A program made the translations under genes and the position numbers. The notes beneath the pieces were generated by a model, which ran no database searches, had not been told where the DNA came from, and worked only from the letters and a program-made list of their open reading frames with translations. From a virus, in the IMG/VR virus record IMGVR_UViG_3300050020_000030, positions 1 through 64,000 of that record: a DNA stretch of 64,000 bases; one strand, written 5' to 3'. This document shows, piece after piece, positions 2,143 through 28,436 of the stretch. The stretch's first letter is position 1. Each line of letters starts with the position of its first letter.

Positions 2143-2360
2143 ATTGTCCGGATTGTGGACGGGACCTAGAAAAGATTCCGGAGCAGTACCGGGATTTTGT
2201 ACACTCTATCCCCGGAAAATCGGACTGGTGCTTGCCTCCTGAAAAGTTCTCTCCGGAAGCAGAAGCTGCTCTAGATAAGCAGGCGGAAGCGTTAACAAAA
2301 CAATTTCGTAAGACCCTAGAGGAGGTACTAAATGGTAACATGGTCATATCGTTGGGATGA
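2139..2360 (+). CDS. small zinc-ribbon protein, paralogue of the preceding gene
   Basis: 73 residues starting MNCPDCGRDL, like the preceding protein. It has one N-terminal CxxC and a distal cysteine (SDWC), then a helical tail. It overlaps the next gene by 29 bases, which is more than usual here. Function unknown. Confidence 0.6.
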   Translation: MNCPDCGRDLEKIPEQYRDFVHSIPGKSDWCLPPEKFSPEAEAALDKQAEALTKQFRKTLEEVLNGNMVISLG

Positions 2361-2649
2361 ATCGAAGAAAGGATGGACCCTTCATCGTAGGGTTGACCAG
2401 AAATATCTGGCCCGGACAGGATTTACTTGGCGCGGGCCGAGTTTGTGGTATAATAAACCTATTGGGCCAATCACCCAGTTTAACCACATTCTTAGAGAGA
2501 CGTTGTTGACGAACTACTATTCAAATTCCTTTTTTAGTAAGTCACCGTTTCTTGGCGGGATGAGGATGTGTCTTCCAGTTCATTCGGGAAAGACGATCCA
2601 GTTCTTTACCTACGGCCTGAAGGAGAAAAATGAAACCCACAGTTCCTGA
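2332..2649 (+). CDS. early protein with a C-terminal major-capsid-protein fragment
   Basis: 105 residues. The first 49 or so are unique and rich in W, R and K. Residues 71-96 align with residues 35-61 of this phage's own major capsid protein (22867-25034). Shared are PFLG, then LPxHSG, then IQFFxYxL with one gap, at more than half identical positions. The similarity stops shortly before the C-terminus. GGAGGT lies 8 bases before the ATG. The corresponding capsid segment is the N-terminal arm region before the first intron. It is one of three early proteins with virion-protein fragments (see 4975 and 5842). What it does is unknown; assembly interference or a decoy role is inference. Confidence 0.7.
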   Translation: MVTWSYRWDESKKGWTLHRRVDQKYLARTGFTWRGPSLWYNKPIGPITQFNHILRETLLTNYYSNSFFSKSPFLGGMRMCLPVHSGKTIQFFTYGLKEKNETHSS

Positions 2650-3518: not shown

Positions 3519-3694
3519 AATTCGGTAAAAGTTTTCAAGACGGGGTACTAGAGAATCTCCTCTTCCACCAAGAGCAGGACGCCGTGGCCCACAACAAGAA
3601 GTGGGATAGGATAGCTTTCTGGGGATTTATCTTTGCATGGGCTATGCTTTTTGCTGGGGTAATATGGAGCGATCTAGCAAGAGGAGTCTTATGA
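3515..3694 (+). CDS. small single-span membrane protein
   Basis: 59 residues. A soluble, charged N-terminal half (through NKKWDR, residues 27-32) is followed by one strongly hydrophobic segment at about residues 33-51 (AFWGFIFAWAMLFAGVIW) and a short basic end. It overlaps both neighbours by 4 bases. A small inner-membrane protein of the early operon; superinfection exclusion or host takeover roles are possible but not shown. Confidence 0.65.
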   Translation: MKFGKSFQDGVLENLLFHQEQDAVAHNKKWDRIAFWGFIFAWAMLFAGVIWSDLARGVL

Positions 3695-4023
3695 GTCAGT
3701 TACTGTTTTCTTTAACTTCGAAGGACTTTGTGTTTCAGACTTTTTGTACCGGGGGTAATGGAGGCCAGCATCGTAATGCTAAGCAGAACGGGGTTCGGTG
3801 TATACATCCTCCTTCTGGAGCGAGGGCGGAGCATAGGGACGGTCGGGACCAGCCTAAGAATAGACAGGAGGCATTTCGGAAGTGCTGCGAAACTCCGGAG
3901 TTCAAGGCTTGGCACCGGACGGAAGTTTTTCGGCGTCTTGGCAAGACAAAAGATATAGAACGGATTGTAGATGAGCAGATGGACTCTAAAAACATAAAGG
4001 TGGAATACTATGAGTCTTTATAA
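3691..4023 (+). CDS. GGQ peptide-release-factor-like protein
   Basis: 110 residues from ATG 3691, which sits behind AAGAGGAG and overlaps the previous stop. The core GGNGGQHRNAKQNG is the catalytic GGQ loop of class I release factors and the ArfB/ICT1/PrfH-type peptidyl-tRNA hydrolases. It is followed by the family's VRCIHPPSGA strand, a DGRDQPKNRQEA segment and a basic helix. Domain 2/4 codon-recognition parts are absent, so it should act on stalled ribosomes or without stop-codon reading, hydrolysing peptidyl-tRNA. The C-terminal tail is shorter and less basic than that of ArfB. A reading-frame start upstream (3637) lacks a ribosome-binding site. Confidence 0.8.
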   Translation: MSQLLFSLTSKDFVFQTFCTGGNGGQHRNAKQNGVRCIHPPSGARAEHRDGRDQPKNRQEAFRKCCETPEFKAWHRTEVFRRLGKTKDIERIVDEQMDSKNIKVEYYESL

Positions 4024-5841: not shown

Positions 5842-6219
5842 ATGTATACACTCAGTTTGGTACACAATACGGCCTTCCCCGAACCGGGAGAATTTTTCAA
5901 CAACACTAAGAATGGCGGGGTTCTAACAATGTCTCGTCTTCGTCGAGAAGTCTTGCGGGCGAGTGTCGAAGGTCTGGAAACTTTCGAGGATAAAAAGTAT
6001 CGGGGCTGGATTCATCCCTATGTCCTGCACGACGTTCTTAATGATGCCTCCTTTAACGGATTAACAGATATTATAGCACGCGGAGAGAAGAAAGACAAAG
6101 CATTTGTATCAATAACTCTTGCGGGAGTTGAGTTTATTTCAACGACAGACGTTCGGGTCTCTACCTTTATCTTCGGTAAAAACTCTGATCCCCTCGATCT
6201 TAAACTTATCTACATCTAA
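5842..6219 (+). CDS. early protein made of a central major-capsid-protein segment
   Basis: 125 residues. Residues 1-27 are unique. From residue 28 (LTxSxLR) to about 120 the protein follows residues 156-262 of the phage's major capsid protein, including HDVLNDASFNGLTDI against HDIYNDASFNGLTDI in the capsid. Over residues 49-78 the two share 20 of 30 positions. A seven- to nine-residue loop of the capsid is missing, and the copy ends where the capsid continues to its last 65 residues. So this is a domain-sized capsid piece rather than a complete capsid paralogue, with a good ribosome-binding site (AGAAGGAAAAGGAAA) and an intact frame. It could co-assemble into or block capsids; not tested. Confidence 0.75.
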   Translation: MYTLSLVHNTAFPEPGEFFNNTKNGGVLTMSRLRREVLRASVEGLETFEDKKYRGWIHPYVLHDVLNDASFNGLTDIIARGEKKDKAFVSITLAGVEFISTTDVRVSTFIFGKNSDPLDLKLIYI

Positions 6220-6260: not shown

Positions 6261-6290
6261 TTACTATTCTGGCCGGATTTGTGGTATAAT
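6261..6290 (+). promoter_or_regulatory. extended -10 promoter of the first virion operon
   Basis: TATAAT at 6285-6290 within TTTGTGGTATAAT, the extended -10 used across this phage; the -35 (TTACTA at 6261-6266, 18-base spacer) is weak. It would start transcription near 6297, directly before the folded leader. Confidence 0.65.
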
Positions 6291-6630
6291 AGTACTAGTG
6301 ACAAAAATGTTTATAGGGGGAGAAGCCTCCCGTAGAAGGCTCAAATCCTCCCCCATCGATTTAAGTTACCGGAAATATCCGGCTACCCTGCCTCGGGGGT
6401 TTGTACTGAGGCACTTTTTGATTCAGGTAATACCTGACCACGCGGTTGTTGGAACCGCATCTGAGCAGATGGCGCTGGAGTAACATACTACCCAGGTATC
6501 TGCTCAACAATTTGATTCCGGAAAATGGAATCTGCCAAGCCGCACGTCCGGAGCAACTCCGGGGGATCGGTTGCATTGCAACGGAGGAGGTCGCTCCTCC
6601 TCTATCTCTTTTCGAAAAGGAATAAATCTT
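6291..6630 (+). ncRNA. densely structured leader or small RNA upstream of the virion gene at 6631
   Basis: This 340-base gap holds at least nine stem-loops. They are GGGGGAG/CTCCCCC (6316-6354) with an inner AGCCT/AGGCT, CCGG/CCGG (6369-6382), TGCCTC/GAGGCA (6389-6413) followed by cTTTTT, CAGGT/ACCTG (6424-6436), GCGGTT/AACCGC (6442-6458), ATCTG/CAGAT (6459-6470), GATTCC/GGAATC (6514-6532), CCGGAG/CTCCGG (6548-6562), and a GGAGGA/TCCTCC stem (about 6583-6600). GAGCAGAT (6463-6470) can alternatively pair with ATCTGCTC (6498-6505), so two exclusive folds exist. The ribosome-binding site AAGGA lies in a CTTTTCGAAAAG palindrome. Short ORFs here are not convincing. A leader regulating the next gene, an antiterminator RNA or a free small RNA are all possible. 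Confidence 0.6.
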
Positions 6631-7266
6631 ATGGCCGGTATTCTCACTTCTCAATCTATCAAGAATCTTCCCACAGTGCTCCTCACTACCGCTACCGAGA
6701 CCGCTGTTCTGGTCCCCGCTTCTGGTCTTTACTCTGGCTACCCTTCGCCCATTATGCCCGCAGGTTCCGGCTTCGTCCTGATCTCCGATCCGGATGCGCA
6801 GTCGAGTAACCCCACGGCGGCTACGCCCACGTATAGCAACGCTTCATTGGATGGTCAGCCTTTCATCCTTCGTGCAGTGTTCAACGTGAATACGGCGGGT
6901 TCATACACCTTCGTTCCCAAGATTTATCAGGTTCCCGCTTCGGTGGTTGTGAATAATGCTTCGAGCACTCTCGGGTCTTCGACGCTGACGAACGATCACC
7001 TGATCGTTACCGGCGCTACCCTGACTATCAGCGGTAAGGGCCAGTACGTTCTGGAAACCCAGCTTCTGTGGGATTCAGTCTCGGGCAAGCTGAACGGCGT
7101 GTTCGATTCGATCACGGATGCTACCTACACGGGTCCTGCTGCTAATACCGCGCAGCTTACCACGGTCGGTGCGCTTGATTTGAATTTTGTGCTGAGTGTT
7201 ACTCTAGGAACGGCTAATGCCGCCAATTCTTATACGCTCAAAGAATTTTCTCTCAACCGCATCTGA
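6631..7266 (+). CDS. virion protein, probable jelly-roll decoration or head-fibre protein
   Basis: 211 residues from ATG 6631 (AAGGA 10 bases upstream). Rich in T, S, A and V, all-beta in appearance. It resembles the product of 27726-28436 in its second half: a PFxxR strand, an xxLxTxxxWDSVxxxLxG block and a final xxLxFxxxxTxGxAxxxxxTxxEFSxxxx. The two are paralogous virion proteins. Codon use is more biased (TCC, GCT, GTT, CGT) than in the early genes, as expected for an abundant late protein. The structured leader upstream suggests tight control. The exact position in the particle cannot be told from sequence. Confidence 0.6.
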   Translation: MAGILTSQSIKNLPTVLLTTATETAVLVPASGLYSGYPSPIMPAGSGFVLISDPDAQSSNPTAATPTYSNASLDGQPFILRAVFNVNTAGSYTFVPKIYQVPASVVVNNASSTLGSSTLTNDHLIVTGATLTISGKGQYVLETQLLWDSVSGKLNGVFDSITDATYTGPAANTAQLTTVGALDLNFVLSVTLGTANAANSYTLKEFSLNRI

Positions 7267-22866: not shown

Positions 22867-25034
22867 ATGGCCTATACTCCCGCAGTAAATACAGTTACCA
22901 GTGGTAACTTTCCTAACGCTTTGGCCGTTTACTATGAGCGTAAAGCAATTCCAAACCTTAAAGCAAGCACTCCGTTTCTGGGGGCAACAAAGCAGTGGCC
23001 TTTGCCGAGGCACTCCGGTAACGTGATTCAGTTCTTCTCCTATAACCTCTTGGGCGCGAATGTCTCTCAGACCACCGAGGGTTTCGTGGGTTCTCCTGTT
23101 CCCGAGAGCGCAGTCAAGATTCAGGCGACAATCGGTGAACTTGCTGCTTAACAGCTAACTGGCCGATATAAAATTCCGCTAAATCGGTGAACATCTGTGG
23201 TATAATGGTGTTATGCCAACAGAAAATACCGAGCTAACTCAAATGAAAGATCACACAAAAGCGTATATGGCCGGAGTCCTCGACGGAGACGGTCATCTAG
23301 GAATTCAGAAACACGGGCAGTATAGTCCTAGTATACAGGTTTGTGGTGAGTCTAAATCGCTTATGGAATGGATCGTCCTTAACTTTGGGGGATCAATCCG
23401 CAAAGAAAAAATCAAGAGCGGTAAAGACTTCTACAAATGGATACTCTACGGGAAGAATTCTCAAAAAGATTTCGTAGAAGGTATCACACCTTTTGTGTTC
23501 ATAAAAAGATCACAAGCAGAGATTCTCCAAGAGTTTCTTAATATCAATCGGAGTGACTACGATCCGGAAAAGAGAGAATCTTACTATCTAGCAATTAGGA
23601 AAGCTAGATCATTGAGCAGCGTAGAGACTGACATGCGGAACAAACTAGACAATAAACTGGCTTGCGCTTATGCGGCTGGTCTGGTTGATACAGACGGACA
23701 CATAAATTTATACACGGTTCCCTCGGGAAAGTCTAAAGGTAGCATACGAACAGGAATAGAAATCGTAAATATCTATAGACCTATTCTCGATGAGCTAGCA
23801 AGGCAGTTTGGGGGTCACGTAAGGAAAAGAACAGAAGACGGGTACAAGACTCGGTATCAGTGGTTCGTTACTGATATGAAATCCGAGGAAAAACTCCTTC
23901 TGGCGATGCTCCCTTATATGATTGTGAAGAGAGAAAAAGCAGAAAATCTTCTCAAGCACCTCCGAGAAAGACTTAGTTTGAAGATACAGCCCGAACTCAT
24001 AGGTGACTATGAGAGTGTCCCAGTGGGAACGCTGAAGACCTAAACACGTTTGCAATACGCTGATTACACCAATAGCTCTGACCTGTTCTTGGATACGGCG
24101 ATTGACGACAAGGGCGCACTTAGCTCTTTGGCCGAGGAAATGAACTATCGCCTCGCCCTCACCCTGAATCTGTTGGTCTCCACGGCTGCGGATTCTCTGA
24201 ATGGCATCGACGGTTCTGTGAATCAGCAGTTGGCAGTCGGTACCTATCTTACCGCGTCGAACCTGCGTACCATCGCTCAGCAGCTTGAGTCGGTGAACGT
24301 TCGTCCGTTCGAAGCCAACACCTACGCCGGGGTTATCAATCCTCTGGTTGTGCATGATATCTATAATGACGCCAGCTTCAACGGCCTCACGGATATCATG
24401 AAGCGCCAGTCCGATTCTTCGAAGAAGTTGTTCGAAGGTCTGGATCGTGACGCCCCTCTGGAGTTCGCGGGTATTAAGTTCAAGAGCACCACAACCGCAT
24501 CGGCTGTGACCATCTCTTCGAACATTTACTATCCCACGTACATCTTCGGTGACGATGCTCTTCTAAGTATCTTCCTCGGTCCTAATCCGGCTGACAAGAA
24601 CAAGAAGAACTACTCACTGAATATCCAGATGGCTCCCGAAGGCGGCTCGGTCTCCGACCCGGCTCGCTTGATTGGTGAACTTGCTGCTTAAGCAGCTAAT
24701 CGGCCAATCTAAAACTCAGCTATATCGGTGAACCTCTCCTAAAATTTTAGGAGACAATACCGAGGGAAGACTAGGGAAAGTACCTAAACCTAGAACCCGT
24801 AACGACTAATACGCTGGGCCTTCGAAAGAAGTGAAGATAGAGTCTGAGCTATACGGCGACGTATAGAGTGTCTCCGGGGTGATCCGGGGGTGGATTAAGT
24901 CCACGATGACCTGAAAAGGCATCTCCAAAACGCAACTGGGGTGGATTTCATATAACTGTAAGTTCGTGGTCACGCCTCCGCCCGGAGTAGTTATGAGGGC
25001 ACGCAAGCTCCTGAGCCAGACGTCTTCAAGCTAA
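22867..25034 (+). CDS. major capsid protein, three exons split by two group I introns
   Basis: Exons are 22867-23136, 24053-24676 and 24939-25034, giving 329 residues. Each junction falls between codons. Joined, they restore the conserved ATIG-QYADYTNSSD and RLIG-GWISYNCKF regions known from the HK97-fold, N4 gp56-like capsid family. Unspliced, the frame stops shortly after each 5' splice site (IGELAA and stop). Both 5' exons end in U, paired to G in the intron guide; both introns end in G. The third exon encodes the last 31 residues, ending QTSSS. Codon use is strongly biased as in other abundant virion genes. Pieces of residues 35-61 and 156-262 are copied in early genes 2332 and 5842. Splicing is predicted, not shown. 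Confidence 0.9.
23194..23223 (+). promoter_or_regulatory. P5 hairpin carrying promoter -10 and the endonuclease start codon
   Basis: TCTGTGGTATAA pairs with TTATGCC-ACAGA around a TGGTG loop, with one bulged A. The same bases contain an extended -10 (TGTGGTATAATG, TATAAT at 23201-23206) and the ATG at 23213. In full-length pre-mRNA the start codon is buried in the stem. A transcript starting near 23213 would lack the left arm and expose it. No good -35 is seen. Confidence 0.65.
23213..24043 (+). CDS. intron-encoded LAGLIDADG homing endonuclease
   Basis: 276 residues, monomeric two-motif type: YMAGVLDGDG at residues 18-27 and YAAGLVDTDG at 153-162. The aspartates D24 and about D159 are the metal-binding residues. 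Such enzymes cut intronless alleles at the intron insertion site and spread the intron by repair. The target should span the exon junction near capsid codons 86-96. The ORF lies wholly inside intron 1; its first codons form P4 and P5 strands, codons 138-143 form P7/P3, and codons 259-267 form P7'/P9. No Shine-Dalgarno sequence is positioned before the ATG, consistent with leaderless translation from the internal promoter. Confidence 0.9.
   Translation: MPTENTELTQMKDHTKAYMAGVLDGDGHLGIQKHGQYSPSIQVCGESKSLMEWIVLNFGGSIRKEKIKSGKDFYKWILYGKNSQKDFVEGITPFVFIKRSQAEILQEFLNINRSDYDPEKRESYYLAIRKARSLSSVETDMRNKLDNKLACAYAAGLVDTDGHINLYTVPSGKSKGSIRTGIEIVNIYRPILDELARQFGGHVRKRTEDGYKTRYQWFVTDMKSEEKLLLAMLPYMIVKREKAENLLKHLRERLSLKIQPELIGDYESVPVGTLKT
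24677..24938 (+). ncRNA. group I intron 2 of the capsid gene, compact and ORF-free
   Basis: 262 bases with a complete core. P1: exon GATTGGT (24670-24676) with GCCAATC (24703-24709), U-G at the splice site. P3: CTCAGC (24715-24720) with GCTGGG (24813-24818). P4: CGGT (24726-24729) with ACCG (24759-24762). P5: perfect CTCCTAAAA/TTTTAGGAG (24736-24753). P6: GGG/CCC (about 24764 and 24797). P7: GACT (24804-24807) with AGTC (24841-24844). P8: CTTC-GAAA-GAAG (24820-24831). P9: CTATAC/GTATAG (24849-24866). The last base is G 24938. Sequence near the 5' end (GAACTTGCTGCTTAA) and after P9 matches intron 1, so the two are siblings. Confidence 0.93.
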
Positions 25035-27725: not shown

Positions 27726-28436
27726 TTGGCAAATTTTGATACAATCGATGCACACGTAGGTGGCACAGGCCGCGAACAAATCAATGTTCTTACCCTTACC
27801 TCCGCAACTGAAACCCTTCTCTTGATGGGTACTGACACTTCCGGTACGACGGTCACCGCCGTTCTTGGAGTTCCCACAGGATCACGTACTGACGCCTCGG
27901 GACATACTCTTCTGTATGGTGCGGGTGCTCCCGTCGAGTTTAACCAGAATGGGGCAGTTAGCTCCCAGAGCAAGGGCCGCAAGGCTTCTGTGTTTACCGC
28001 GTCCCCGAATTTCTCTGTCAGTACGTTTGACTCTGGTCGTCCGTTCCGGATCAGACTTTTTGGGACCGCCTCGGTAGCCGCAGTTACTGTTACTACGGTA
28101 ACTAACTCAATCGTGGTGGCAATTTATCAGGGAACTGCAATCGTGGCTACTCGTCAGGTTTCTATCCTTACAGCGGGCGGAAGCTCTACTAGCACGACCG
28201 CTGCCGCAGTGGGTCAGTTCTTCTTGGATACCACCGTGCAGTGGGACTCGGTAAATCAGGTTCTTGGTGGCTGGTACGGCGGAAACGCTCTTAACACCCT
28301 CACCGCGTTTCACGCGCTGGGTAACGCCGTGTCGGTTACTACGGCCAACAACCTTCAGTTCTGTGCGTCGGCTACCTTCGGTCACGCAGAGGGTGGTACG
28401 GTCACGGTTTCTGAATTCTCGATTGAACAGGTTTGA
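27726..28436 (+). CDS. virion protein, paralogue of the 6631 gene
   Basis: 236 residues from TTG 27726 behind AAGGAGAA. All-beta, T/S/A/V-rich. Shares with 6631-7266 the PFRIR strand, a DTTVQWDSVNQVLGG block and the final strand ending EFSIEQV. Probably a trimeric jelly-roll head or tail decoration protein. The HNH gene follows directly. Confidence 0.6.
   Translation: MANFDTIDAHVGGTGREQINVLTLTSATETLLLMGTDTSGTTVTAVLGVPTGSRTDASGHTLLYGAGAPVEFNQNGAVSSQSKGRKASVFTASPNFSVSTFDSGRPFRIRLFGTASVAAVTVTTVTNSIVVAIYQGTAIVATRQVSILTAGGSSTSTTAAAVGQFFLDTTVQWDSVNQVLGGWYGGNALNTLTAFHALGNAVSVTTANNLQFCASATFGHAEGGTVTVSEFSIEQV

Follow-up and report, generated by a model that had tools for sequence, protein, structure and literature searches.

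The window analysed here comprises bases 1-64000 of a soil phage record of 88,639 bases. Close to its left end lies an ORF encoding a protein of 105 aa, which by its sequence features looks like a gene: it opens with ATG, a ribosome site (AGGAGG, 2320-2325) is located six bases 5' of that ATG, it is overlapped by both the preceding ORF (end 2360) and the next ORF (start 2630), and codon preference fits frame 0 in its head as well as in its tail. The features of the window needed below are as follows.

2332-2649, + strand: the 105-aa ORF
2332-2469, + strand: its head, residues 1-46, with no known relative; a beta-hairpin is weakly predicted in a low-confidence model
2442-2455, + strand: TTTGTGGTATAATA, an extended -10 promoter-like motif inside the 105-aa ORF, with an identical copy at 6278
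2536-2619, + strand: capsid-like segment, residues 69-96 of the 105-aa ORF, matching capsid 33-61, the putative strand before the E-loop
5842-6219, + strand: second ORF, capsid-derived, 125 aa, wholly capsid-like (capsid ~124-258, E 4e-14)
22867-23136, + strand: major capsid gene exon 1, residues 1-90, its boundary inferred from intronless relatives
22969-23049, + strand: capsid residues 35-61, the counterpart of the segment in the 105-aa ORF, by tblastn and a 68-sequence profile
23137-24052, + strand: intron 1 with a LAGLIDADG ORF (23213-24043), by comparison with relatives
24053-24676, + strand: major capsid gene exon 2, by profile and relatives
24939-25031, + strand: major capsid gene exon 3, by profile

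Searches of Pfam, PHROGs, NCBIfam and PADLOC gave zero matches to the 105-aa protein, which was not recognized as a member of the N4-gp56 capsid family (TIGR04387, PHROG 1357) or of any other family at E<=1, and its predicted structure was uninformative (pLDDT 41). When the protein was compared by tblastn with all six frames of the window, it found itself first and then 22963-23076 on the + strand, within capsid exon 1, where residues 69-105 matched at 42% identity (32.7 bits, E 5e-5); no other match was better than E 0.68. A profile of relatives' capsids, used in a six-frame search that covered the window, G000 64001-84000 and G001 1-40000, aligned ORF residues 69-101 with capsid 33-66 (E 4e-4). 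The first-pass annotation had proposed that residues 71-96 match capsid 35-61 and had suggested a profile comparison; the same limits were returned by a 68-sequence capsid profile searched against 1.04 million aa of ORFs (i-E 0.011). Furthermore, when the 105-aa protein was searched against all ORFs of 17 genome sets, two capsids were the only matches at E<=0.01 (E 1e-4 and 2e-4). These comparisons confirmed, at the level of sequence, that a non-capsid ORF holds in frame a genuine segment from the N-terminal region of the capsid (~33-66). Of a full-length HK97 fold, only the equivalent of capsid 33-66 was detected, and there the ORF ends. The last nine codons fall within the ribosome site and the beginning of the following gene (2630), so that the capsid homology stops near residue 96. 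The segment is joined to an unrelated head, as had been claimed, the head being without database relatives.

It could be argued that a 26-residue stretch resembles the capsid by chance, as the match is short and the wide family profile scores 10 bits only. Nevertheless, the relatives'-capsid profile gave the ORF 17.9 bits, which none of 5000 shuffles attained (best shuffle 4.5), the E of 5e-5 was obtained within the window itself, a second piece, certain to be capsid, is found at a distance of 3.2 kb, and capsid pieces recur in other phages. Chance resemblance is thus strongly disfavoured, and we regard it as highly improbable.

The three-exon structure of the window's capsid gene was deduced from relatives in viral contigs. 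The matched segment lies in exon 1, as the first-pass annotation had stated, and this exon precedes the intron with the LAGLIDADG ORF. No RNA family reached the Rfam gathering threshold in the window, intron 1 included. The starts of the two capsid introns (junctions 23131-23151 and 24671-24691) have 21 bases in common at 95% identity, and the two introns may be related to each other. In relatives, capsid genes are split into up to five exons (L068), with insertion points at many residues (L068, L059, L062-L067, L057, L009 and L012). The published description of the Cluster J mycobacteriophages, as far as its available parts go, reports capsid genes split in a similar manner by introns and endonucleases (PMC3706429); it differs from the present case in that its subject is how introns are spliced from capsid and tail genes, and not pieces in other proteins.

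The nearest named phage is Tunturi_3, described in the available part of its report as a phage of an acidobacterium (PMC11924767). The match of its capsid to TIGR04387 (E 1.7e-9) falls below the curated cut-off of that model, and the capsids of Tunturi_3 and L010 match PHROG 1357. No match was obtained in a PDB sequence search with the capsid profile. The capsid of one relative was modelled at low confidence (pLDDT 50), and the best Foldseek match of the model was the N4 capsid 9e99 (E 8e-11). In this model IQFFSYNL forms a strand, ATIGQYADY about 20 residues on forms another, and a long helix follows; in terms of the HK97 fold we take the first to be the strand that precedes the E-loop, the second the hinge and the third the spine helix. 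A model of this confidence does not allow capsid interfaces to be mapped. Although the segment of the 105-aa ORF is homologous to residues 33-66 of a same-genome member of the N4-gp56 family, the ORF differs from that family in having only ~34 (perhaps 55) of its residues, in lacking the E-loop, the spine and the P- or A-domain, and in matching none of the family models.

The second capsid-derived ORF, at 5842-6219, was placed in the clade of the window's capsid in a midpoint-rooted tree of 77 tips (support 96), on a long branch of 1.2. The two pieces do not overlap (capsid ~33-66 and ~124-258), in keeping with the original claim; the implication that the second is also a fusion did not hold, as this ORF aligns to the capsid from its first residue. 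In two relatives, ORFs named HNH-like endonucleases from reading their sequences occupy the position of 5842-6219. A search of the window, G000 64001-84000 and G001 1-40000 with the close profile turned up no third capsid piece, and neither did a profile search of the whole record. We considered whether the pieces at 2332 and 5842 could be exons of one split second capsid gene, which is unlikely because the intervening genes (2896, 3637 and 5446) keep their synteny in relatives without the pieces.

The first-pass annotation had suggested looking for the fusion in related phages, where it was not found to be kept. Among ten records searched, two (G000 and G001) have it at 100% identity, the near-identical G001 being the sole other holder found. 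In seven of the ten the only match was at the capsid gene, apart from one weak intron stretch in G006, and Tunturi_3, also among the ten, had no match. A search of 50,697 phage records yielded nothing credible. As far as these data go, the fusion is private to its lineage, and as the only homologue is identical, selection on the ORF after capture is beyond measurement.

Other pieces of capsid do recur in related phages. With an N-arm profile, 8 of 51 records had a non-exon match at E<=0.002, compared with ~0.1 expected (G026, G021, G029, G001, G000, G022, G031 and G028, G000 and G001 being one case), which upholds the view that recurrence speaks against chance. A hinge profile run on 25 records matched at E<=0.004 in G030 (two places), G026, G010 and, weakly, G020. 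In the 17 genome sets (1.47 Mb; G026, G025, G004 and G000 incomplete), 13 non-exon ORFs in 9 sets matched capsid segments, a share that is not a prevalence, the sets having been partly picked for having matches. Several of the 13 are weak singly (i-E 0.01-0.04), and the G028 ORF (55 aa) overlaps a longer ORF. At i-E<0.05, the number of such ORFs was 7 for capsid 1-67, 3 for 60-110, 1 for 100-150, 2 for 150-215, 0 for 205-270 and 1 for 265-343, while shuffled-column controls gave 0 or 1 match in total over 10 runs per segment. One further candidate, GQEIKFFTYAIPE at 3998-4030 of L012, is a peptide within a capsid-gene intron, followed by a stop (E ~0.1); it probably arose by chance and was not counted. 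A profile search of genome contigs with the capsid alignment found one locus, the capsid gene of a MAG contig, and no extra N-arm piece.

One of these cases is found in G026, in which a 104-aa ORF carries capsid 2-67 after a leader (E 1.8e-14, capsid profile of 29 records); the leader resembles a twin-arginine signal, its Pfam TAT_signal match (E 0.003) falling below the cut-off of that model. G026 also encodes a 115-aa capsid-piece protein with an 80-aa relative in Tunturi_3 that stops just before KATIGQWADY, and it is possible from this alignment that the Tunturi_3 protein represents the state before the piece was gained. A capsid-like protein of 163 aa is encoded in G025 ~2.3 kb 3' of the capsid gene (L150 6493-6984, reverse complement); it has the N-arm, hinge, spine and C-terminal strand and is without E-loop and A-domain, the boundaries having been set by eye.

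Four phages (G021, G022, G030 and G031) carry their pieces at one locus, with a metallophosphatase, a protein X with a GRKFR-like tail, called zinc-type from reading of its cysteines and histidines, and a capsid-piece protein in that order; G021 has the piece and X joined in a single protein. Each phage has a different piece (8-36; 13-34 plus hinge; ~53-130 without the E-loop; 9-39 plus hinge; limits set partly by eye). Besides X, G024 has a homologue of the G022/G031 protein that is without the capsid piece, so that there the piece is dispensable. The locus is absent from the window, in which the X profile had no convincing match; two small ORFs gave weak scores only, with a profile search of few sequences. 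GRKFR or GRRFR ends were seen on several unrelated proteins per phage, namely on 26 ORFs in 8 of the 17 sets (L158, L166, L168, L182 and L203-L206, of G022, G031, G021, G024 and G017), compared with 9 ORFs that have the pattern in a mid-protein stretch. This end looks like a shared C-terminal tag.

In order to compare the capsid with other genes, we took the 13 Tunturi_3 gene families that occur in 8 or more sets, divided them into 99 segments of at most 67 residues and searched these alike. The capsid had 16 local-only subjects, 3 of which are true exons, leaving 13 that are not. Terminase, portal, gp12 and gp13 had 1, 1, 6 and 1, and the remaining eight families 3, 1, 3, 0, 8, 2, 1 and 2; by inspection, most of these 29 non-capsid subjects are split genes, RecA-like or other shared P-loops, diverged full-length relatives or decoration-like domains. 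This comparison of sequences showed that capsid pieces recur more strongly than pieces of the 12 other conserved families. As for the age of the copies, the 105-aa ORF and the capsid have 15 identical residues, with third bases in common in 4 of the 15, and no near-identical second capsid DNA was found in the 17 sets, the longest such stretch being 133 bp at 65% in G026. The few common third bases, together with the lack of a near-identical DNA copy, indicate that the copies are old or come from another phage. For much of that time they were kept as protein, either in the capsid of a donor or in an accessory protein.

A serious rival to mimicry, and the main one, is that the pieces are neutral relics of recombination, in which breaks in capsid genes rich in introns and homing endonucleases scatter DNA, and some pieces, having ended up in gene-dense regions, persist in ORFs without having a function. 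We consider this quite possible, though doubtful. It would agree with the five-exon capsid gene of L068, with the piece at 5842-6219 occupying the spot of HNH-like endonuclease ORFs in two relatives, and with the varying extent of the pieces between phages. It is less easily reconciled with the absence of a near-identical or recent capsid copy in the 17 sets, with the open frames in which pieces from six-frame searches sit, with the use of one locus by four phages, with third bases that are saturated while residues are kept, or with the excess of the capsid over 12 other conserved families, compared regardless of the introns of those families. At 2332-2649 nothing like intron or endonuclease sequence was seen.

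We tentatively favour the explanation that the 105-aa ORF is a translated accessory protein whose tail was copied long ago from the capsid of the same phage (~33-66) and has since diverged, as one instance of recurrent mimicry in this phage group. The first-pass annotation had taken a wide spread of the segment in non-capsid proteins as a sign against its claim; such a spread was found in part, in other non-capsid proteins of the same phage group, and we read this recurrence as mimicry at the protein level rather than as a refutation. Accessory proteins in the group would repeatedly gain short capsid segments, drawn from the N-arm helix, the strand before the E-loop, the hinge after it, the spine helix, the A-domain and the C-terminal strand, and retain them as peptides. 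Assuming that the capsid-piece ORFs are translated, the segments might mimic the capsid by occupying a partner of capsid protein that is newly made and still unassembled. That such capsid-like peptides are useful to the phages is the simplest account of the recurrence, the capsid preference, the open frames and the shared locus.

The likeliest partner would be a capsid-sensing factor of the host, for which the mimic might act as a decoy; almost equally likely is that the partner is the capsid lattice or a factor for assembly. The decoy is our first choice because sensing of freshly made capsid protein by the host CapRel system has been documented, as the available portions of two reports describe (PMC9712102; PMC11578894). 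According to these portions, one host sensor, CapRel SJ46, can bind newly made capsid protein as well as a small phage protein of another kind, which resembles the present case, but in that system both phage proteins act as triggers and the smaller has no structural relation to the capsid (PMC9712102; PMC11578894). Here, the small protein itself bears capsid sequence, and the sensor is hypothetical. PADLOC gave no match relevant to capsid sensing. Recognition of a short capsid segment by a host defence is also seen with the Gol peptide of T4 and the Lit protease; Gol, in contrast, sits in the capsid protein itself and is not copied into another protein. The more far-reaching proposal, that a group of soil phages maintains under selection a shifting repertoire of capsid mimics attached to unrelated accessory proteins, in several of them at one locus, to titrate or block a factor recognising unassembled capsid, we hold to be rather unlikely as a whole. 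Among the papers listed in literature searches, no title or opening part of an abstract gave an account of capsid fragments in other phage proteins, which does not prove that there is none.

Alternatively, the pieces might bind the capsid lattice as minor components, assembly regulators or tags for packaging into the virion. In favour of this, segments of the kind copied are expected to contact neighbouring subunits in the HK97 fold, and the multi-segment protein of G025 is encoded near the capsid gene; most pieces, however, are far from structural genes and adjoin genes for phosphatases, ligase-like proteins or zinc proteins, and we judge this role unlikely. Bacterial immunity is known to use the capsid protein as an alarm signal. 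If capsid mimicry does occur, the copied segments would mark the surfaces read by a host sensor or by the assembly line, they would be ready-made peptides for finding that partner, and they would make a clear case of a virus that imitates its own parts and not those of its host.

Further observations concern other features of the window. Sites of the TTTGTGGTATAATA type, with at most 2 mismatches, number 7 in the window (2442, 6278, 15711, 23194, 25098, 28507 and 36836) compared with 0.31 expected, and four of the 7 directly precede homing-endonuclease ORFs. The motif inside the 105-aa ORF allows that this region is partly non-coding. The small protein at 3637-4023 has relatives in G007 and Tunturi_3 (63-66% identity) and contains a GGQ stretch like the motif of peptide-release factors. 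Finally, the C-terminal part of the protein at 6571-7266 is shared with a protein of the structural region (27726-28436), and from this similarity the two are possibly fibre or decoration paralogs.
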